Assembly (NCBI GenBank): GCA_009785345.1
Contig: WQWL01000004.1
Span: 22,693 to 86,692, forward strand
DNA length: 64,000 nt
Direction: 5' to 3'
DNA from: Oscillospiraceae bacterium
Lineage (GTDB): Bacteria; Bacillota; Clostridia; Oscillospirales; Oscillospiraceae
The notes under the pieces were generated by a model. It saw nothing but the letters and a program-made list of their open reading frames with translations, had not been told where the DNA came from and did not search any database. The position numbers and the translations under genes are program-made. This document shows positions 9,019-57,139 of the stretch, in pieces (within the stretch, counting starts at the first letter, position 1; every line of letters starts with the position of its first letter).

Positions 9019-9035
9019 TTAATCTTCCTCCCATT

Positions 9036-9065
9036 CGTCATTCTGCGGGTCGTCGCAGAATGACG
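9036..9065. repeat. REP-like palindrome
   Basis: cgtcattctgcgggtcgtcgcagaatgacg. Confidence 0.85.
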
Positions 9066-9089
9066 ATAGTTTTCATCGACTACTTCACA

Positions 9090-12000
9090 TTACCTGTTTA
9101 TATACCGCACCGCATTGCAGAATATTTTACTATCCTTCACACTGGTCACATTTGCATAGAGACCCTTGCTCATATTTTCTACAAGTCCGACCCTGCCTAG
9201 TATCAATCCATTTTCGCTTATCATTGACTCGACAGAACCGGAGCCATCATCGTTGATATATTGAGAAGTAATTTGTCCCTTTGTGCAATACTCGTTGAAC
9301 AGCTCATCAGACATATGTACGACATTATCTTTTCCTGAAACAGGCACTGTTTCAATTTTACCGCCCATGTTAACAAGCCATGGTGATTTGGCATTTTCTG
9401 CAATCTTTACAGACTTTAGCGTGCAGTAGTGTGCATTTGTTGGGTTTGTTGTGAGAACAACATTTCCGCATTCATCATCTTGAACCAGTCCTGTTTGTAT
9501 TAATCCGACTTTCAAAAGTGCTTTGAAAGCTTCACCTGTTCCCAGAACAAGACCTTTTCGTTCGGATATCATTTTATTTATTGCATTTTTAACATCCGTT
9601 TGTCTCAAAATCATTGCAATCAGTTTGCTACTGCCGTCAGGCTCTGCACCTGCCGACATTCCTGATGGTATTGCCAGAATATCTGCATTGCTAACTGCCT
9701 TAGCTAGTTCAGCATAACTATCTTCAATTTCATTTGCAGTTAATGTGCGGAAGACTACTGTATTTACATCCGCTCCTGCTTTTGTAAATTGCTTTTCAAG
9801 CTCATATTCTCCTGTTGAGCCCGGGAAGATCGGGATAAGCACTCTCGGAGAGACCTTTGCAGTTTGTGAGTCTGCACACTTTATCTCTTCACATGAAGCT
9901 CCTGCATCACAGCATTGTGAGTTTGCATTTTTTACAGCTAATGTCGGCGAATTTTGTATCGGGAATACGCTACTGAGCGCACCTTCCCATATTGTTTGGG
10001 CTTCATCAAGAGAAATTTCAACATCATTTATTTCGATGCTACCTTTATCCGTTGTTGTTCCTAGTAAAATGAACTCTTCTCTGAGTCCTTTGCAATCTTT
10101 TGGCATAGTGTCTATTTCAAGCACCATCGTCGCATACTGTGGTGCAAACAGATCATCTGTTAATGTTTCTGCAAAACGTGGATCAAAGGCGATTCCTATA
10201 CCATTCCCAAATGCCATTTCACTTACAGTAGCTGCGATACCGCCCATGCCCACAACACTTGCAGACTTGATGCATCCGTATTCAACCAGTGTGTTTACCG
10301 TGCTCATGTTTCTCTTCAATACTTTGAAATTCGGCATGCCTGTTGAATCAATGGGTGTTTTGAGTAGATATACGTTGTTCCCGGTACCTTTGAACGCGCG
10401 AGATACAAGCTTTGTCGTATCTGCGACTGCAACTGCGAATGAGATGAGTGACGGCGGAACATTTATATCCATGAAAGTTCCGGACATACTGTCCTTGCCG
10501 CCTATAGCTGGAATCTCAAGCTCATCCTGAGCAAGAAATGCACCCATTAGTGCAGCGTATGGCTTGCCCCAACTCTCGTCACTTACCAATCTTTCAAAAT
10601 ACTCTTGGAAGCTCAAACGCACTTTGCTATAATCGCCACCCATTGCAACAATCTTCATTACAGATTCAATTACGGCATACATAGCTGCATGGAACGGACT
10701 TTGTTTTCCTAGAGATGGATTATATCCTACAGTCATCAGGGTACCGAAGTCTGTTTCACCCTCTGTAAGTGGTAAACGCATTGCTAGGCCTTGCTCCGGT
10801 GTCTTTTGGTTCACTCCGCCATATGGCATAAATACTGTGCCTCCACCTGCGGTAGAATCAAAGCGCTCTGCAATGCCTTTTTTCGAGCATACATTTAAAT
10901 CAGCCAATGTCTCCAGCCATTTGCTTTTTATTTCTTTACTATCCGTTTTCTGCTCACTCGCGTTGAAGCAAGAAACTGTTATATTTGTTCTTTGTCTTAC
11001 TCCACCGGAATTTAGGAAATCGCTGCTTACACTCAATATTTCATCGCCACGCCATTTCATACTAACATGGCCTGTATCTGTAACATCTGCAATTTTTACT
11101 GCTTCTAAGTTTTCCTTGGCAGCTTCGTCGAGAAATTTTTCAAGATCTTCTTTGGCAATTACAACTGCCATGCGCTCTTGAGATTCAGAAATTGCAAGCT
11201 CCGTACCATCGAGTCCGGGATATTTCGTCGGAACTTTATCCAAATCTATGTTCAACCCGTCGGCAAGCTCGCCTACTGCAACGCAAACGCCGCCTGCGCC
11301 AAAGTCATTACATATTTTTATCATTTTCGATACATGAGGCTTGCGGAACAATCTCACGACATTGCGCTCTACTACTGGATTGCCTTTTTGTACTTCTGCG
11401 CCGCCTTGTTCTAGTGAGTCCTCGTCATGCTCTTTGGAGGAGCCTGTTGCGCCACCGCAACCATCGCGTCCTGTTCTTCCACCAACCAGCACAACCACGT
11501 CTCCCGGAAGCGGTTTGCCTCTGACGATATTTTCTTTCTTTGCAGCAGCCACAACAGCTCCACATTCCATTCGCTTTGCCTTGAATCCGGGATCATATGC
11601 TTCAATAAGTTGCCCAAGAGCCAATCCAATACCATTTCCATATGAGCTGTAGCCTTCAGCTGCAGTTCTAGTAATTTTTCTTTGTGGCAGTTTGCCGGGC
11701 AACGTATCTTCAATTGCAGCTCTCTGATCATCGCTACCGGTTACTCGAATAGCACCGAATACATGTGCGCGCCCTGAGAGTGGGTCACGTATAGCTCCGC
11801 CCAGGCAGGTTGATGCGCCGCCAAAGGGCTCCATTTCTGTTGGATGATTATGAGTTTCATTTTTGAACATTACAATCATATCCGTTGGCTTACCATCGAC
11901 AGGCACAGTCACTTCGATGCTACAGGCATTGACTTCGTCGGACTCTTCCATATCCGCAAGAAGTCCATTTTTTCTGAGTTTTTTCATCTCCATTGTCGCA

Positions 12001-34186: not shown

Positions 34187-34492
34187 TTATTTGAACAATG
34201 CACCTCGTCAAACTTGCCTACTATCCCTTGCAATTGCAGGGGATAATATTTTTTAACAGCCCATTACCAAAAGGCATAATGTGTTATTCAATATAAGCAT
34301 TAGACATATAACCATCATTCCTGTATAATCGCTTCATAAGGGAGATGTGATTAGTTTGAATAAATTCAAACTAACGAAAGAATGTGCCAATTTGCTCTCC
34401 CTGCGGGAAACCGCAAATTAATGCACGAAATGACCATACCTTATCCATGGTTGTTTTGTGACTAGGTAGTAAACAAAGGGATGGTCATTATT

Positions 34493-35734
34493 ATGAAGAA
34501 AAAGATTTTCTACGGTTGGTATGTGGTTATCGCTTGTATAATTATTGCTGCTGCGGGCATTGGGTTCCATAATACGGCAAGTATATTTATTATACCGGTT
34601 ACTGAGGATTTAGGGTTATCTAGGGGGGAATTTACATTTTTTCGCACAATAATTGCTCTTTTGGGCGCCGTGTTGCTTCCACTATATGGCAGGTTAGCAA
34701 AGCGGTTTAGCATAAAAAGCGTTATGTTAGTTGGCACTGTACTAAGCAGTTTATCATTAGTTGGATATTCATACGCCACACACCTCTGGCATTTCTATTT
34801 GATAGCGATATTTAATGGGCTATTTGTAAATGCATCTCATTTCATGATGATTGGTATACTAATTAACAGATGGTTCGAGGATAAAAGAGGTCTTGCATTG
34901 GGGCTGGCTTTCGCTGGCAGTGGCCTCGGCGCTGCAATAATGAACCCAATGGCGAGTGTAATTATCGAAACTTTTGATTGGCGATGGGGATTCCGTTTTA
35001 TGGGGATTGTTGCTGTTATAATATTGATTCCTACAATAGTATTTCTCATTAAGGAAAGTCCTGAAAAAATGAAATTATCTCCTTATAGGAAAGACAACAA
35101 AGATATTGCAAAAGCACCTAATACGCGTACTCCTACAGGGCTTACTCTTACAGAAGCACGAAAAACTCCTGTATTTTGGTTTTTAGCTGTTGCCTTGTTT
35201 AGCATTGCAATAGGGGCAGCAGGTCCGCATTCTCATATTGCTCCATATCTTGTGGATTTAGGATATTATCCAACACTTGTCGCGACTATTGTATCCTTTT
35301 CGATGGTAATTTTGACAGTTGGCAAAATACTTATGGGAAATATTTTTGACCGTTCCGGAACATTTGTTGGTGGTATCATTTTGGGAAGTCTGTTTATACT
35401 ATCTCCAATTTTTGCTCTTCTGGCTACAAACCCCACTGCCGCTTGGCTTCACGCCTTTATTTTAGGGATGGCTGCAACGGGATTTTCAATTTCTGCTAAT
35501 ATTTTCGTAATGAAGTTTTTCGGAGAAAAAGATTTCCCTGTCATTCTTAGTGTGTTTTCATCTATAATGGCATTTGGGGGTGCTTTCGCTCCACCTGCTA
35601 TGGGCTTTGTTTATGACATTTTTGGTACTTACACAAATGCTTGGTATTTTCTGATAGCGTCAGGAATTGCTGTATTCATCTGCTTTATTGGTGTAAATGT
35701 GACAGGCAAGAAATTATTAAATTCGCAAAATTGA
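34493..35734 (+). CDS. MFS transporter (OFA/monocarboxylate-like)
   Basis: MKKKIFYGWYVVIACIIIAAAGIGFHNTASIFIIPVTEDLGLSRGEFTF; 12 TM. Confidence 0.85.
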   Translation: MKKKIFYGWYVVIACIIIAAAGIGFHNTASIFIIPVTEDLGLSRGEFTFFRTIIALLGAVLLPLYGRLAKRFSIKSVMLVGTVLSSLSLVGYSYATHLWHFYLIAIFNGLFVNASHFMMIGILINRWFEDKRGLALGLAFAGSGLGAAIMNPMASVIIETFDWRWGFRFMGIVAVIILIPTIVFLIKESPEKMKLSPYRKDNKDIAKAPNTRTPTGLTLTEARKTPVFWFLAVALFSIAIGAAGPHSHIAPYLVDLGYYPTLVATIVSFSMVILTVGKILMGNIFDRSGTFVGGIILGSLFILSPIFALLATNPTAAWLHAFILGMAATGFSISANIFVMKFFGEKDFPVILSVFSSIMAFGGAFAPPAMGFVYDIFGTYTNAWYFLIASGIAVFICFIGVNVTGKKLLNSQN

Positions 35735-35740
35735 TTTAAC

Positions 35741-35801
35741 GGGTAATGTCAAATAGTCTATGAAAAACTAACGTCATTCTGCGGGTCGTCGCGGAATGAC
35801 G
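35741..35801. repeat. REP-like palindrome with conserved 5' extension
   Basis: gggtaatgtcaaatagtctatgaaaaactaacgtcattctgcgggtcgtcgcggaatgacg. Confidence 0.85.
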
Positions 35802-35826
35802 AGATAATAAGATTAGGGGTATTCTT

Positions 35827-36717
35827 ATGGAAATTAGAGTGTTGAAATATTTTTTAGAAGTAGCAAACAAAGGTAGTTTTTCAGCTGCCGCAAAATCCTT
35901 GCACCTATCTCAACCAACACTTTCACGACAGTTAGGCGAACTAGAGAAAAACATTGGCAAAAAGCTGTTTATCCGAAGCAGTATAAGAACAGCACTAACT
36001 GAGGATGGTATGTTTCTTCAAAAGAGAGCGCAAGAAATTATAGATTTGACGCAAAAGACTGAATCAGAATTACGCCAATCTGACAGCTTCATCGGTGGTA
36101 ATATATGGATTGGTGCAGGCGAATCGGAAGGTATGCGAATAGTTGCAAAAACCATTAATTCTTTAAGAAAAGACTTTCCAAATATCCATGTACATTTAAT
36201 AAGTGCAAATGCAACTGACACTATTGAGCGATTGGAAAAAGGTCTTATTGACTTTGGAGTTGGAGTTGGAGGTATTGATTTGAACAACTATGAGTCAATG
36301 TGGCTGCCTACCGCACATGCTGATGGGCTGCTAATGCGTAAAGATAGCCCTCTTGCTTCTCGTACTGCGATTACTCCAAATGACCTAAAAGGAATACCCA
36401 TCATTTCACCTAGAAGTGAAAGTTTGCGTCATCGATATGAACAATGGTTAGGTTATAGCTTTGATTCATTAGATATCGTTGCTACCTTTAATCTTATATA
36501 TAATGCTGCGTTTCTGGTAGAGGAAGGTGTCGGTTACGCCTTGACTATAGATCGCCTTGTAACTACTTCTGAAAACTATCCTCTATGTTTCGTGCCGTGT
36601 GAGCCAAAAATGGAAGTGCGTTCAAACATAGTGTGGAAAAAGCAACAGGTGTTTTCAAAATCTTCGCAGAAGTTTTTGGAGCGATTACAGGAGCTAACTT
36701 CGGATTCGACATCGTAA
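35827..36717 (+). CDS. LysR family transcriptional regulator
   Basis: MEIRVLKYFLEVANKGSFSAAAKSLHLSQPTLSRQLGELEKNIGKKLF. Confidence 0.95.
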   Translation: MEIRVLKYFLEVANKGSFSAAAKSLHLSQPTLSRQLGELEKNIGKKLFIRSSIRTALTEDGMFLQKRAQEIIDLTQKTESELRQSDSFIGGNIWIGAGESEGMRIVAKTINSLRKDFPNIHVHLISANATDTIERLEKGLIDFGVGVGGIDLNNYESMWLPTAHADGLLMRKDSPLASRTAITPNDLKGIPIISPRSESLRHRYEQWLGYSFDSLDIVATFNLIYNAAFLVEEGVGYALTIDRLVTTSENYPLCFVPCEPKMEVRSNIVWKKQQVFSKSSQKFLERLQELTSDSTS

Positions 36718-36804: not shown

Positions 36805-37578
36805 ATGGATATACTTAGGGCACTTGAATCTATTCGCACACCTTTTTTAGACGTGCTTATAACTTGGATAACCAGGTTGGGGGAAGAAATGATTTTGATT
36901 GTCATTTTTTGCTTCATTTTTTGGTGTATTAGTAAACGCAAAGCGTATGTTATCGGCATTGTGTTTTTCTTCACAGCTATTATTGTACAAGGAATGAAAA
37001 TAACATTCAGAGTTGATCGTCCATGGGTTTATGATCCAACATTTCCAACTGTTACAGGTGCAGAAGGCACTGCAACAAGCTACGCATTTCCAAGTGGACA
37101 CACGCAAGCAGCTGCCGCATATCTCATGCCGCTGGGTATGCTTCTAAAGAACAAAGTTCTGAAAGTCATCATGTTTATGCTTGCAATACTCGTTGCGTTT
37201 TCAAGGATGTATCTCGGTGTTCACTTTATGTCTGATGTCATTGTTTCTCTCGCCATTGTATTTGTCGCGACACTCTTGGTAATCAAACTTTATTATAACG
37301 CCCCAGATAATACAAAGAACAAAATTTTGTTCCCGCTTTTGACTATTATCGTTTCTGTTGCATTGTTGGTTCTTGTGCTAGTTTTGGACAGAGCGGGTGT
37401 TACATATGCATCAGAGCTTAGGGACAGCGTATTAGCCGCGGGATCTGCTTTAGGTTTTGCAGTTGGTATGTATATTGAGCAAATGTATATTAAGTTTTCT
37501 GTCAAATCGAAAAATATCGGAATTCATATTATAAAGAATGGCACATGGGTTCGATGCAATAATTGGGAAAGTGCCTGA
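36805..37578 (+). CDS. Phosphatase PAP2 family protein (3' end fused into rearranged DNA)
   Basis: FPSGHTQAAAAYLMPLG, SRMYLGVHFMSDVIVS; last codons run up to the Roco-gene fragment. Confidence 0.85.
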   Translation: MDILRALESIRTPFLDVLITWITRLGEEMILIVIFCFIFWCISKRKAYVIGIVFFFTAIIVQGMKITFRVDRPWVYDPTFPTVTGAEGTATSYAFPSGHTQAAAAYLMPLGMLLKNKVLKVIMFMLAILVAFSRMYLGVHFMSDVIVSLAIVFVATLLVIKLYYNAPDNTKNKILFPLLTIIVSVALLVLVLVLDRAGVTYASELRDSVLAAGSALGFAVGMYIEQMYIKFSVKSKNIGIHIIKNGTWVRCNNWESA

Positions 37579-37579
37579 C

Positions 37580-37656
37580 CAATTGCGCGTACCAGTTTCC
37601 CCAATATTCACAACCCATTTCACGCAGAGCCTTCTGGAAGTTGCCCCATATATGGC
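37580..37656 (-). pseudogene. Fragment of a paralogue of the Ala-rich/Roc gene at 42380-44989
   Basis: Minus-strand frame IWGNFQKALREMGCEYWGNWYAQL versus IWDNFQNALCDIGCEYWGNWYAQL in the intact region. Confidence 0.75.
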
Positions 37657-37909
37657 GATATCTGCTCACTTGCCTTAATGCTTACAGATATGTTGCCTTC
37701 CGTATAGTAAACGACGTCGGCTCGCCCAATTTTCGTGTTTTCGCGGCTCAATCACTTTCAAGCCTAATGTCTTACAATACCGATATGCGGGCACGAGAGG
37801 GCGGTTCTCCGTGAGCCAATGTCATTAAGTTATCATTAACAAGTAGACCCCTAACAAAAATAATTAAATAAAAGCGATAAAACACTTGACAAGCATCAGT
37901 TTGTGTGCA

Positions 37910-38161: not shown

Positions 38162-41100
38162 ATGAGAAGGAAGTTGAAAAATAATATATTGTTTCAGCCG
38201 GTGAAAGTAAAGGATTATTCGAAATTTTTTGTGGCATTGGGGAAAGCAACACTTTATGGTGTCAGCAAAGAATTTGATAAATCTGCACTTAGTTTTATGG
38301 ATGCGGGTGCAGCTTTGGGACTTGATGAAACTGACGAACGGTTGGCGTGGAAACTTTTAGATCGCTCAATCGTCCACGCAATAACTGATTTGGTGAGTGA
38401 GAGTAAAAATAGTATTCCTCAATCTGATGAGGAGACTTTTATTGCCAATATCAAAAAATTTAAGTACAACAAAGAAATTGAAATTGATCCTGACTTCTTT
38501 GAACGCCCGAAAGAATGTCAGTTCATAAAGGATCTTCAAGAAGTATTTCGTGAATGGCTTGTGCTGGCAGGTGTAGATGCTAACAAAACTGAAGCCATTG
38601 TTCACAGACTTCCTGGTTTTTTTGTGTATTCACTGCATAGTGAGTGGTGTAATAATCCGGAAAAATATAGAAGTCTACTTAGCGAATCACCTTTTTCAGG
38701 TTCAGTGCAGATGGAAGAAGAATGGGACAGATACAAGGCTTATTTGGAAAAACAAATACAGGAACGTATATTTGATGAGGTATTTAGCTTGGCGCAAATA
38801 TTCGTTCCGCTCTGTGGCTATTTTAATAAAATAACAGAACACGCAAAAGATACTGACAGAAAAGAAAGCGGCACACAACTCGACCTTGATTCTATACCTG
38901 CTCGAAAAACGCAGAAAATTGTAGTTGATCTTGAAACGTGCATACATGAGTGGATAAGCAAGGACGACAACGAGGATGCGATTCGTGTAATCAGCGGAGG
39001 ACCGGGCAGTGGAAAATCTTCATTTGTTAAAATGCTTGCGGCTTCCATTTCAACGACCCACGATGTTCTGTTTATCCCGCTTTATAAACTTGATTTAAGG
39101 CGTGATGTCAAAGAAGTCGTTGGCGAATTTTTGGTTTCCAATCGAGTTTTCCACAAAAATCCGATCGGTGAATCAGAACAACTCCTGATCATCTTTGATG
39201 GCTTAGATGAAATCATGCAACAAGGCAAGGCGAGTATAGATGCCGGGACTGATTTCACGAATCAGATTTTACAGCTATTACGAGATCACAATTCTTATGA
39301 TAGACTGCAGATTCGTGTGATCATCACAGGTCGTGACTTGCCGGTACAAGCTATAGATACAAACCTCAGACGGGAAGGTCAGATACTCCATGTTTTGCCG
39401 TACTATGTTGATCAGAAAAAGTCAATAGGTATATATTTTGAAGATGAAACCTACTTTGACCCTGATGGCTTATTAAAGGACGATAAGCGGAGGCAATGGT
39501 GGGTGAAGTATGGGAAATTAACCGGAGGGAAATATGCTGGACTTCCGTCAGAACTCGATAGATCGGCTTTAGAGGATATTACTGCCCAGCCTCTCCTAAA
39601 TTATTTATTGGCATTGAGTTTTGAGCGCAAAGAAGTACATTTTTCCCAAAAAATGAATCTGAATGAAATTTACAACGATTTGATTGATGCGGTCTATGAA
39701 CGCGGATGGCAGTCTCAGCGGCATAAAGGTGAACCTGTCCAACCGGGTCATCCAACAATTCAAGGCGTCGAGAAAGACGACTATGATAGAGTATTGGAAG
39801 AAATCGCTGTTTCTGCCTGGCAGGGTGCGGGACGGACAGCTACATTGCAAGATATCGAAAAAAGGTGCGCAAATAACAAGTTGAAACATGTTCTTGAGAG
39901 GTTTCAAGAACAGGCAAAAGAAGGCGTTACGAATCTTCTCACTGCGTTTTATTTCCGTGAAGCCGACACACGAGACCCAGATGGGGATAAAACATTTGAA
40001 TTTACCCATAAAAATTTTGGAGAATATTTAGCGGCTAGGAGAATAGTGAGACAGCTTTCAAACACAAAAACAGCGCTGGATCAATCATTTGGCTGGACGG
40101 TTGAAATCGCGCTGGAGCACTGGATTCACGTTTGCAGTAGAGTTCCTATTGACGAATATATTTTCCAGTACTTGTGTAATGAGATTGAGAGAAACAAGAA
40201 GGCTGACGTGAAAAGATGGCAACAGATGCTCTGTGAGCTAATTGCCTACATGTTAAAAAATGGTATGCCCTACGATAAAGTACCACAGCTAACATTTGTT
40301 GAAAAAGTACGATTTTCCAGAAACTCAGAAGAAGCTTTGCTGGCGGCGCTGTCTGCTTGTTCTCGTTACACGAAGGAAATCTCCAAGATAGACTGGCCTG
40401 GCGCAATGCCGATAGACTTTCCCCACATAACCTCTGCCGGTGAGTGGCTTTCCAAACTAAGTGGTCAACGAAGGGGGACTAATATTGCCATTTCATGCTT
40501 AAATCATCTTGATCTTTCAAGATGCATTCTGCATAGAAGAGATTTATATCGAGCCAACTTAGAGCACTCGTCTTTGAAAAATTGTGACTTGGATCATGCG
40601 ATTTTAGCTGAGGCTAAATTGCATAAAGCTGATTTGAGTGGAAGTCGTCTCAGGAATGCAAACTTGAGGGACGCTGATCTAAGGAAAGTCTTTTTAGAAA
40701 CTGAGAGGTTGTCTTTTGATGGGGTTATCTTAGATGACGTTAAGGCGGATGATGCTCAAATATATTTCACCCGTGGCATTGCGCATCGATATAATAACAA
40801 TTATTCAAAGGCTGAAAAAGAATTTAACAAAGCAATAGAACTTGTGCCAGATAATGCGCAGTACTATAATTGTCGCGGTGTAAATTACCGTTGGTCAAAC
40901 AAACATCGGAAGGCGATTGTAGATCACACGAAGGCAATAGATCTTGCGCCGGACAATGCTCAATACTTCCACGATCGTGGAGCGAGCTACTCTTGGCTTA
41001 GAGAACATGGAAAAGCATCTGCTGATTATACGAAAGCAATAGAGCTTGCACCTAATAATGCTGGATTTTATTCTGATCGTGGTAATAATTACAGGTGGCT

Positions 41101-41617
41101 CAGAGAGTACGAAAAAGCAGTTGCTGATCATACGAAAGCAGTAGAACTTGTGACTTGGAATACCGAATATAAGGCAGAGTTGGCTTTCGCTCAGTATAAA
41201 GTCGGAGACATTGATCTGGCCTTTAGAAATTTAGATAGCGCGCTTTGTATGAACAATCCCTCATTTCTTGCTTATCGTAATTCGGGTGTAATACGATTAA
41301 AAGTTGCAAAGAAAAAGCAAGAAAGATGTGGGTCTGAAGTACTGGATATGCTTAATAAAGCGATAAAATTGACAGAGGGAAGGTTTGATTGGGGATCTAG
41401 CCTATCCTATATGCGGCGCGCGGAATATTATTTATATACAAATGAATTAGATACCGCCCTAGCGGATCTGAATCATGCGATTGTACTCAACGAAGATAAT
41501 GACCAAGCGTGGTTTTACCTCTCGAAATACTATGAACAGACAGGAGATACGCAGCAAAGTGCACTTTGCTTAAGCAGAGCTAAGGCATTTGGGTATACGC
41601 TGGAAGATGATGATTGA
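38162..41617 (+). CDS. NACHT-domain STAND NTPase with pentapeptide repeats and C-terminal TPRs
   Basis: Walker A VISGGPGSGKSSFVK, Walker B LLIIFDGLDE; LNHLDLSRCILHRRDLYRANLEHSSLKNCDLDHAILAEAKLHKADLSGS; repeated ~34-aa TPR units. Confidence 0.88.
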   Translation: MRRKLKNNILFQPVKVKDYSKFFVALGKATLYGVSKEFDKSALSFMDAGAALGLDETDERLAWKLLDRSIVHAITDLVSESKNSIPQSDEETFIANIKKFKYNKEIEIDPDFFERPKECQFIKDLQEVFREWLVLAGVDANKTEAIVHRLPGFFVYSLHSEWCNNPEKYRSLLSESPFSGSVQMEEEWDRYKAYLEKQIQERIFDEVFSLAQIFVPLCGYFNKITEHAKDTDRKESGTQLDLDSIPARKTQKIVVDLETCIHEWISKDDNEDAIRVISGGPGSGKSSFVKMLAASISTTHDVLFIPLYKLDLRRDVKEVVGEFLVSNRVFHKNPIGESEQLLIIFDGLDEIMQQGKASIDAGTDFTNQILQLLRDHNSYDRLQIRVIITGRDLPVQAIDTNLRREGQILHVLPYYVDQKKSIGIYFEDETYFDPDGLLKDDKRRQWWVKYGKLTGGKYAGLPSELDRSALEDITAQPLLNYLLALSFERKEVHFSQKMNLNEIYNDLIDAVYERGWQSQRHKGEPVQPGHPTIQGVEKDDYDRVLEEIAVSAWQGAGRTATLQDIEKRCANNKLKHVLERFQEQAKEGVTNLLTAFYFREADTRDPDGDKTFEFTHKNFGEYLAARRIVRQLSNTKTALDQSFGWTVEIALEHWIHVCSRVPIDEYIFQYLCNEIERNKKADVKRWQQMLCELIAYMLKNGMPYDKVPQLTFVEKVRFSRNSEEALLAALSACSRYTKEISKIDWPGAMPIDFPHITSAGEWLSKLSGQRRGTNIAISCLNHLDLSRCILHRRDLYRANLEHSSLKNCDLDHAILAEAKLHKADLSGSRLRNANLRDADLRKVFLETERLSFDGVILDDVKADDAQIYFTRGIAHRYNNNYSKAEKEFNKAIELVPDNAQYYNCRGVNYRWSNKHRKAIVDHTKAIDLAPDNAQYFHDRGASYSWLREHGKASADYTKAIELAPNNAGFYSDRGNNYRWLREYEKAVADHTKAVELVTWNTEYKAELAFAQYKVGDIDLAFRNLDSALCMNNPSFLAYRNSGVIRLKVAKKKQERCGSEVLDMLNKAIKLTEGRFDWGSSLSYMRRAEYYLYTNELDTALADLNHAIVLNEDNDQAWFYLSKYYEQTGDTQQSALCLSRAKAFGYTLEDDD

Positions 41618-41771: not shown

Positions 41772-41796
41772 CGAGGAGCAGGGAGAGTAATTATTA

Positions 41797-42010
41797 TGAA
41801 GAAAAAGATTTTCCTGTCATTCTTAGTGTGTTTTCATCTATAATGGCATTTGGCGGTGCTTTCGCTCCACCTGCTATGCGCTTTGTTTATGACATTTTTG
41901 GTGATTACACAAATGCTTGGTATTTTCTGATAGCATCAGGAGTTGCTGTATTAATCTGCTTTATTGGTGTGAATGTGACAGGCAAGAAATTATTAAATTC
42001 GCAAAATTGA
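41797..42010 (+). pseudogene. MFS transporter remnant: 5' end joined to 3' end (internal deletion)
   Basis: atgaagaaaaagattttcctgtcattcttagtg fuses the start and last ~70 codons of the gene at 34493-35734. Confidence 0.85.
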
Positions 42011-42075
42011 TGCACGTAATCACCATCCTTTCCACAGCAGTTTTGTGTTATAAACTTGAGTAAAAGTGTGGTTAT

Positions 42076-42300
42076 TCTTATAATCTCATATATAATGCTG
42101 CTTTTTTAGTTGAGGAAGGTGACGGTTACGCCTTGACTATAGATCGCCTTGTAACTACTTCTGAAAACCATCCTTTATGTTTCGTGCCATGCGAGCCAAA
42201 GATGGAAGTACGTTCAAACATAGTGTGGAAAAAGCAACAGGTGTTCTCAAAATCTTCGCAGAAGTTTTTAGAGAGACTGCAGGAGTTGATGCAATACCCG
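42076..42300 (+). pseudogene. LysR regulator 3' remnant
   Basis: Near-identical to the C-terminal part of the LysR gene at 35827-36717 (NAAFLVEEG.GYALTIDRLVTTSENHPLCFVPCEPKMEVRSNIVWKKQQVFSKSSQKFLERLQEL). Confidence 0.85.
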
Positions 42301-42379: not shown

Positions 42380-44989
42380 TTACCAGCCGAACATCTGTGC
42401 ACCCTGTTTATATAGATTGGCACAACCTTTCAAAATATCTGTTTTCAGTTTTTTATTTAGGGGAGTTCCGGGCGTCAGTGCGTCCTTAAGTAAATTTCGC
42501 CCCCTTGTGAATATTCCACTTCCTCTAACATCATTTGCTGTCTGTGCTGTTTCGTTGCTCTCCACTTTTTCTGCCGTGCGATTCAAAATCTCCGCTTCTT
42601 CCGCAAAACCTATTGCCTGAAATTCTTCCGCAAGACTACGAAAATCTCCTGCAAAGTCAAACTTGCAGTTTTGGAAGTTGTACTCGGTGTGGTCACTTAT
42701 ATTACCTCCAGCCACCTTCTCAACATTGCCATGAACGATGATTTCAGTATAATTCTCGATGAGATTGTATATATTTACCGTTGGTGTTGCTGACACAGTC
42801 TGCCCCGTTCCAGGAATCGGGATGCCTTGATTTGTCGCAATAAGGTCTTTGATATCCTGTCCGGATTTCATCAAGGGAACTTTCACCAATGATGGCAACA
42901 AATCCTGTGCGGTATTGCTGATAATCCGATACCAAGATTCCGGTTTAGCACTCCGGTATGTATCCAAAATACGGTTTATTATTTCGCGAATTTTAGAGAT
43001 AAATTCTGTTTGTCCTGCTCCTTTTACACGAACACTAATCCTATTTTCACTTTCCTCAAGTATCAGTGCAACTGCATCCGTATCGTGCAGCACTGCACCT
43101 CTCAGCCAAATGTCCTCCTCGCCACGAACGTATTCACAAGCGCATACAATTAGCCTTGAAATGATGTTTTCCGGAAGCCGCACCTCCGCGCGATATTCCA
43201 TCAAGAGGCTGTTTGCCTCGTCAAATTCCTTGCCGAAATGGAGATACTTATCTGGCAAGCCCCCGAGTAGTGTAGGAATAATAATATCCTCGCCCTCAAA
43301 ATAGGCCAGTTCATATTTATTCATGAGCATGAATATAAACTCAGCCTTTTTCATGGGGTAACGTTTAGGCTCATCATTGAAAATTTCTGCAAAATCTCGT
43401 TTACCTAAACGGGTTCGTCGATTCCGTAAGCCCCAATTTATAACCTTGTAAATGCCGTTGGCAATCCAGTCCGGGTTCAGCACAACGGTATCATATTCAG
43501 TCAAATCAGGATACCACAAGCTCGCACCCAACGACGTCAGGCTATTCAGTATCTCTTTGAACCGTTCAGGTTCGACTTTGCATTCAGAGGCAATTGTTTC
43601 AAATTCTTTAGGTGATATGTTTTCCAGCCTATTATCTGCATCCTTATCAAACAGTTCCTCGATTTTCTCCTTCACACGGAAATCATCAGCTGGTATAACC
43701 TGGTTATTCCAACTGGGGGCATCTCGCACAAGCTGCGCGACTTTTTCTCGGAACACTTCCAACTCTTCATACTCTTTATCAATGTTCACATAGAAAAATT
43801 CATCTTGAATAAACGGATACATTCTTCGTAAATCGTTTTCAAGCAAGCGCGGAGGATTGTCATCATCTCGTAAATTGACTAATATGAGCGTTGGTGAATC
43901 TCCACCATAATTGCGCACATGATCCAGCCAGTACTCCAAACGGTTACGCCCTTCTGTTCGACCATCATACACAATCACATATAAACACCGCGCAGAGAGG
44001 AAACAGCGGTGGGCGAAATGTGTTATAACATGCCCAGCAAAGTCCCAAATTCGTGCCTTTACATCGCGCCTGTTCTCTCCTCTGTCAATTTGCCAAACAC
44101 TAGTGTCCACTCCTCCTGTGCTTTCTTCCTCATCTGTCATTTTTGTCGTTGGGTCTTACAGACGGCGGGCAAGGCAGGTTTTCCCCGCGCCCTTTTCGCC
44201 CAATATAATAATTCGTGTTTCACTGATGGTTTCCGTGCCTTGCTTCGACCTTTCCATATAACGTCCAACTGATGCAGCACCTTCTTCGAGATACTCTTTT
44301 GGCACGCTCAATCGCGTCTCAATTTCCTCATAGCCGTTACTGTCCAATGCAAAGCCTCGCTTGAATAACTGCGCGTACCAGTTTCCCCAATATTCGCAAC
44401 CTATATCACACAGAGCGTTCTGGAAGTTGTCCCATATATCCCCATATATGGAGATATCATGATGAAAATTATGTCTCCCGGTTTTTATGTTTTCTAAATC
44501 CTCAAGCAGGAGGGGTCTTAAATCAATACACAAATGGTCGGCGGCGGCGACAGTGGCGTCGGCGGCATAGGCTGCGGCGTAGGCATAGGCGGCGGCGTGG
44601 GCTACGTAGGCGGCTGCGGCGTAGGCATAGGCGGCGGCGTGGGCTACGTAGGCGGCTGCGGCGTAGGCGGCGTAGGCATCGGCGTAGGCGGCGACAGCGA
44701 CAGCGGCGTCGGCGGCGTCGGCATAAGCGTCGTAGGCGGCGGCATAGGCGGCGGTGACATCGCCGGCGGCATAGGCGGCGGTGGCGGTGACATCCAATGC
44801 TCTCAGCACCGAAAGTAGATGTGTCTGCCTTCTATCGTCGCTCCTAATGGCTGTCCAATACTCAAAATCCCCTTTATTACCCAAAATTGGCAACACACGT
44901 ACTACACATAGCCAAGCAAATAAACAAATATCCTCACGCGTATGACCATGTAGTCGTTCTTCGATTTGATTTTTGAATTCTCCAGCCAT
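42380..44989 (-). pseudogene. Roc-COR-like GTPase with Ala/Tyr-rich N-terminal region, split by an in-frame TAA (44156-44158)
   Basis: ORF 44156-44989 ends ...IIILGEKGAGKTCLARRL*; after DPTTK the same frame continues as ORF 42380-44140 with ARIWDFAGHVITHFAHRCFLSARCLYVIVYDGR and COR-like VVLNPDWIANGIYKVIN. Confidence 0.75.
44579..44662. repeat. Perfect tandem duplication of a 42-nt unit (14 aa) inside the Ala/Tyr-rich region
   Basis: gtaggcataggcggcggcgtgggctacgtaggcggctgcggc x2. Confidence 0.9.
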
Positions 44990-45270
44990 GCTAACCCCTC
45001 CTCTTCTTGATTGAAATATGAGTTCATAAACTCATTGCATTACCATTTAAAACAACGGATAATGAACAAAAAAAGCATACCATAAAACATATCTGTAGTC
45101 TACCCTTTCCAGGCATAGATTTCCTGTTGAAGTATATTGATTCACACCGTATGGAAAAGTTAATGCTTGGCTCATTATTGACATAGCTAGATGCTACGTG
45201 TAATATTTGCAGTAGAAGCGGAAAGCAATGAGGTGTTTGATTATCTATATGTTTGAAAAATGAGGTCAGC

Positions 45271-56968: not shown

Positions 56969-57051
56969 ATGATTACGTCGATTGTTGAGAGCTGCAGAGG
57001 GTATTATCATAATTATATTCCTACGCTTTCAAGGCAAGTGTACGCAAAAAT

Positions 57052-57112
57052 GGGTAATGTCAAATAGTCTATAAAAAACTAACGTCATTCTGCGACTTCG
57101 CGCAGAATGACG
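57052..57112. repeat. REP-like palindrome with conserved 5' extension
   Basis: gggtaatgtcaaatagtctataaaaaactaacgtcattctgcgacttcgcgcagaatgacg. Confidence 0.85.
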
Positions 57113-57139
57113 AGGTAAAATAATGTTAGGAGATGTTTT

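Follow-up and report, generated by a model that had tools for sequence, protein, structure and literature searches.

The minus strand of the window, by which we mean the whole 64,000-nt stretch of Oscillospiraceae DNA that was analyzed, carries a Roco-type GTPase gene that was most probably (with a probability of roughly 0.78) recently inactivated by a nonsense mutation, having formerly been a single-ORF gene, dispensable and horizontally spread. From 44989 to 42380 the strand holds one reading frame with a single interruption, a TAA at 44156-44158 shortly past the P-loop codons, where the first helix of the G-domain ends (Table 1). The 5' ORF, starting at ATG 44989, encodes 277 aa, the last residues being LGEKGAGKTCLARRL, and is closed by this TAA; 15 nt later (GAC CCA ACG ACA AAA), with the frame kept and without any indel, the 3' ORF begins at ATG 44140 and encodes 586 aa up to the TAA at 42380. 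The 591 codons that follow the lesion contain no other stop and no frameshift. The original start at 44989 is preceded by the strong Shine-Dalgarno sequence AGGAGGGG (anti-Shine-Dalgarno duplex of -12.5 kcal/mol), whereas a Shine-Dalgarno sequence is absent at the internal ATG 44140, with a duplex energy of only -1.4 kcal/mol. The first-pass annotation had described one in-frame TAA, a frame continuing at an ATG without frameshift and the lack of an evident Shine-Dalgarno sequence before that ATG, and ORF inspection and duplex energies agree with it on each of these points.

Table 1. Features of the interrupted Roco gene and of the gene remnants around it (window coordinates).
Feature	Position	Strand	Basis or remark
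5' half: helical N-domain, Ala-rich region and P-loop (G1), 277 aa	44156..44989	-	ORF and N-domain alignments
Shine-Dalgarno sequence AGGAGGGG of original start	44995..45002	-	sequence and duplex energy
Unnamed all-helical N-domain (FAWLCxVRxLPFL ... Ala-rich ... YGxxW..GCxYW)	44237..44989	-	
Ala-rich repeat region of N-domain	44540..44791	-	
P-loop GEKGAGKT	44177..44200	-	
Lesion, in-frame TAA	44156..44158	-	sense codon or one-residue gap in 27 relatives
3' half: switch regions, remaining Roc, COR-A, COR-B, C-terminal tail, 586 aa	42380..44140	-	
Roc G-domain, spanning the TAA	43871..44215	-	Pfam, joined frame
COR-A	43265..43681	-	Pfam, joined frame
COR-B	42932..43210	-	Pfam, joined frame
Remnant of duplicated MFS transporter gene (intact copy 34481-35734)	41780..42011	+	5' end joined to 3' end
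Remnant (3' end) of duplicated LysR-type regulator gene (intact copy 35827-36717)	42081..42285	+	92% identical
92-nt remnant of second Roco gene, part of N-domain	37573..37664	-	85% identical to 44359-44450

The 3' ORF alone matched the Pfam Roc profile from position 26 onwards, together with COR-A and COR-B, and when the two halves were joined the Roc match began at profile position 1, COR-A and COR-B being matched as well. Roc is directly followed by COR; in the joined frame all three Pfam domains exceeded the cut-off, and they were matched in 28 of 28 aligned members. Among solved chains the nearest are those of bacterial Roco proteins, such as 4wnr (E 3.5e-34), LRRK2 being matched as well; the earlier assignment to a Roco-type GTPase with a stop after the P-loop is hereby confirmed. 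Since the two ORFs are colinear with relatives by alignment, they represent halves of one protein and not a chance adjacency. An uninterrupted Roc domain with G1-G3 in one polypeptide was found in all 27 relatives and is lacking in the window copy, in which the TAA follows GEKGAGKT; as the stop lies inside Roc, the window copy was classed as a broken gene of the Roco family and not as a working member. Roc and COR-A/COR-B are common to the window gene and the group-1 prokaryotic proteins CtRoco (C. tepidum, PDB 6hlu/3dpu) and the LRR Roco 4wnr. However, group-1 proteins carry an N-terminal LRR, in place of which the window family has an unnamed all-helical, Ala-rich N-domain, and the window copy differs further by the in-frame stop that cuts its Roc domain. 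NACHT/STAND NTPase proteins resemble the family in that the same N-domain or a pairing with NACHT is seen in relatives (loci L015 and L003), but the enzyme core of the window gene is a Roc GTPase and not NACHT.

In all 27 full-length relatives that share this architecture, the same-genus gene L003 (genome G002) and L034 among them, a single frame reads through the site, and the lesion is absent from these intact relatives, as is characteristic of a pseudogene, none having a stop in or around this position (0/27). The first-pass annotation had proposed to align intact homologues across the TAA; in this alignment the column is occupied by a variable sense residue (I in 7 relatives, K in 4, V in 4, R in 2, and Y, Q, L and H once each) or by a one-residue gap (6 relatives), and there is no conserved stop because the column is a variable helix-end position. 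The methionine at the putative restart is Met in 19 of the 27 relatives as well, within a motif (P/A)xM(T/P), and is, as read from the alignment, an inherited ordinary residue of the family. Even the best relatives share just about 40-45% identity with the window protein, none being a close intact sibling. The window protein keeps 45 of 47 columns with at least 90% conservation downstream of the stop and 35 of 37 upstream of it, similar to intact relatives. According to a stop-count estimate, neutral divergence of about 3-4% would bring one or more further stops with a probability of about 95%. Because downstream conservation is retained and the frame is free of further lesions, the stop is considered young; judged from the retained frame, the lesion is most likely either young or an error. 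An excess of downstream change specific to the window gene was tried as a candidate and rejected, its rate being equal to that of L003 (21.9%) among four close relatives. Other members of the family are broken elsewhere: L042 by an in-frame TGA farther downstream (L042:1796), L068 by frameshifts, and L044 by truncation shortly before the P-loop. Breakages at such differing places fit the repeated loss of a dispensable gene and not a shared split design. Among the options that had been raised for this locus, a fresh inactivation is the one supported by the intact one-frame relatives, the retained downstream conservation, the unshared stop and the relatives broken elsewhere.

The surroundings of the gene are scarred, in that it sits within the decayed remains of a duplication, a point that the first-pass annotation had missed. 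Remnants of an MFS and a LysR gene lie just past the 3' end of the Roco gene, the intact pair being located at 34481-36717. The MFS remnant, 94-96% identical to the intact copy, has a 1-kb internal deletion with its junction in the short direct repeat GAAAAAGATTT and is, by its sequence, a textbook case of repeat-mediated deletion. The remnant of the second Roco copy is found 7 kb from the broken Roco gene. The divergence of the MFS and LysR remnants amounts to 4-8%, and that of all remnants including the Roco one to 4-15%, which exceeds the bound of 3-4% for the stop; hence, the remnants are older than the TAA. From these divergences, we infer that the locus would first have been duplicated, that one Roco copy was then nearly wholly lost while the other was kept, and that the kept copy was later struck by the nonsense codon. 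Enclosed by the two parts of this decayed duplication, 38162-41617 encodes a NACHT protein with an NNH3 N-domain and pentapeptide and TPR repeats, and a relative of this gene is present on contig C19 (64% DNA identity). Two short dispersed repeats were also observed, namely an element of about 97 nt upstream of the MFS gene (34400-34497), which has many copies in the genome and the genus (73-88% identity) and no match in Rfam, and a second repeat at 35738-35817, 57049-57130 and 9035-9094 (80-85% identity), with a similar stretch on contig C214.

Alternatively, the TAA might stem from an error in the consensus or assembly, or from a minority strain, the gene being intact in the organism, which we consider unlikely. 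The stop is known from one draft assembly of the species (237 contigs, 85.9% complete), a single-base difference within an otherwise perfect and well-conserved frame is the expected look of an error, and the retained conservation would be equally expected from an error or from an efficiently rescued gene. However, a partial check of the window did not find other broken core genes, the ORF overlaps of RuvC/RuvA and of purine-synthesis genes being those of ordinary neighbours, and real pseudogene remnants are present at the locus. The TAA is presumably a real base of the organism. It is rather improbable that the stop converts the Roco switch into a stand-alone N-domain protein that has a use of its own, the loss of the GTPase part being recurrent and selected in a horizontally spread, receptor-like family; this reading is suggested by the natural occurrence of stand-alone N-domain proteins (L062, L060) and by the truncation of L044 before the P-loop.

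A functional split, in which reinitiation at ATG 44140 would produce two chains that come together again as a GTPase, is very unlikely, although at a gap of 15 nt reinitiation is expected to be lowered and not wholly lost; in E. coli, coupling fell by 40-80% at +14 nt (PMC10666635). The missing Shine-Dalgarno sequence argues against it, as do the restart Met inherited from the intact gene, the lack of any relative split at this place and a cut that separates G1 from G2 within the G-domain. Neither the genuinely split GTPase nor the consistent occurrence of homologues as two separate genes with ribosome binding sites, both of which the first-pass annotation had considered, agrees with the single genes found in all 27 aligned relatives. 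Programmed or suppressor-mediated readthrough of the TAA, also raised at that stage, would give the full-length protein and would be in line with the conservation of the part after the stop, but it is highly improbable, given that more genes of the window end in TAA than in any other stop (17 of the 40 counted), that an ochre-suppressor tRNA with anticodon TTA was not found among the tRNAs recovered from the 86% complete genome, that the selenocysteine tRNA found reads TGA, and that the stop is absent from all relatives. The phase variation suggested earlier is hardly credible, for although an exact tandem duplication in the Ala-rich tract (two identical 42-nt units side by side at 44570-44611 and 44612-44653) makes in-frame length variation plausible elsewhere in the gene, these units are in frame and unable to create the TAA, the TAA site has no repeat, homopolymer or inversion, and a point nonsense codon is not a known reversible switch.

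Under the favoured reading of a recent nonsense inactivation, the TAA would part G1 (the P-loop) from the remaining G-domain; the strong start would give rise to an N-domain on its own, with a stub of P-loop, and weak reinitiation may lead to a fragment without P-loop. In G-proteins, a fragment without P-loop, or a P-loop without the remainder of the G-domain, should not bind GTP. Neither fragment should bind GTP here, so that the switch would be dead and both products are presumably inactive. The intact protein was probably a GTP-controlled scaffold or receptor, by analogy with its fold family and with the STAND NTPase fusions in relatives, in which the variable, helical N-domain would make protein contacts and Roc-COR would dimerise and act as the GTPase switch, with a helical tail behind it. 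As in ordinary bacterial pseudogenes with one nonsense codon, a single inactivating point lesion affects a dispensable gene of patchy occurrence; compared to those, the lesion of the window gene is unusually young and the remainder of the gene is intact, with no essential difference.

The gene is present as a single copy in its own genome, and among the genus members searched by full-length alignment, matches were obtained only in the window genome and in G002, i.e., the distribution is patchy. In G002 the gene is embedded in an ORF of 3382 aa, whereas G027, from the same family, has a single ORF of 819 aa that is colinear end to end. Nearest in sequence to the window protein is L034 (45%), which comes from a different family of the order and begins at the edge of its own contig. 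Scanning of genome contigs with the N-domain alignment yielded 40 loci, four of which (L041, L061, L069 and L075) overlap the genome set, being contigs from the genomes G002, G027, G061 and G167; most of the 40 carry the labels of drafts from Oscillospiraceae, Defluviitaleaceae, Bathycorpusculum and other archaea, Bacteroidales, Fibrobacter and Planctomycetaceae. Their isolate codes are those of termite-gut bins, and the host of the window gene is thus probably an Oscillospiraceae-like bacterium of the termite gut. The corresponding contig scan with the C-terminal half alone did not find the relatives, the patterns being too specific. There were zero matches in phages, none confirmed in viral contigs, and just distant Roc-COR matches in plasmids.

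According to Pfam, none of the 28 members carries an LRR. The N-domain was modelled as consisting of helices only (pLDDT 79), with a core of Ala-rich repeats that varies in length; it had no sequence match in PDB, no match in NCBIfam and no consistent match in Pfam, and a Foldseek search of the model against PDB and viral models gave zero matches at E <= 0.001. A relationship to an Imm5-like immunity family, prompted by weak matches, was rejected (hhalign probability of 0.1%). In L015 this N-domain stands before an nSTAND/NACHT-like NTPase, and in L016 before an ABC-type ATPase. Taking L015, L016, L036, L038, L060 and L062 together, it is common to Roc-COR, nSTAND/NACHT, ABC-type ATPase and stand-alone proteins of bacteria and archaea. 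Four tandem stand-alone N-domain genes lie at L062:2264-5911 in a Tannerellaceae draft genome, and L060 has one stand-alone gene. The giant ORF of G002 (L003/L041, G002:C39) combines two N-domains, a STAND-like NTPase, PPDK_N (PEP-synthase-like) and Roc-COR followed by NACHT, and one of its regions resembles, by eye, a PD-(D/E)XK nuclease. This modularity resembles that of receptor or conflict-type NTPases, and a defence role of the family is only a suggestion: PADLOC gave no match for either half or the joined frame and single weak matches in a few relatives, and nothing relevant was found in the literature searched on antiphage Roco proteins or on this N-domain.

The prokaryotic Roco proteins then known were all said to carry an N-terminal LRR (review PMC6337361), and a survey of 2014 reported LRRs in the majority (PMC4316618). 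The intact Roco family with a helical front domain instead of LRR looks little described. Contrary to the view that LRR marks all prokaryotic Roco proteins, it forms a coherent LRR-less clade in bacterial and archaeal draft genomes, and it is this family, more than the stop, that is of interest, the stop itself being an ordinary gene breakage. The N-domain is a candidate for a new sensor or scaffold domain, and the LRR-less clade offers new bacterial models for the GTPase core of LRRK2, the Parkinson's protein.
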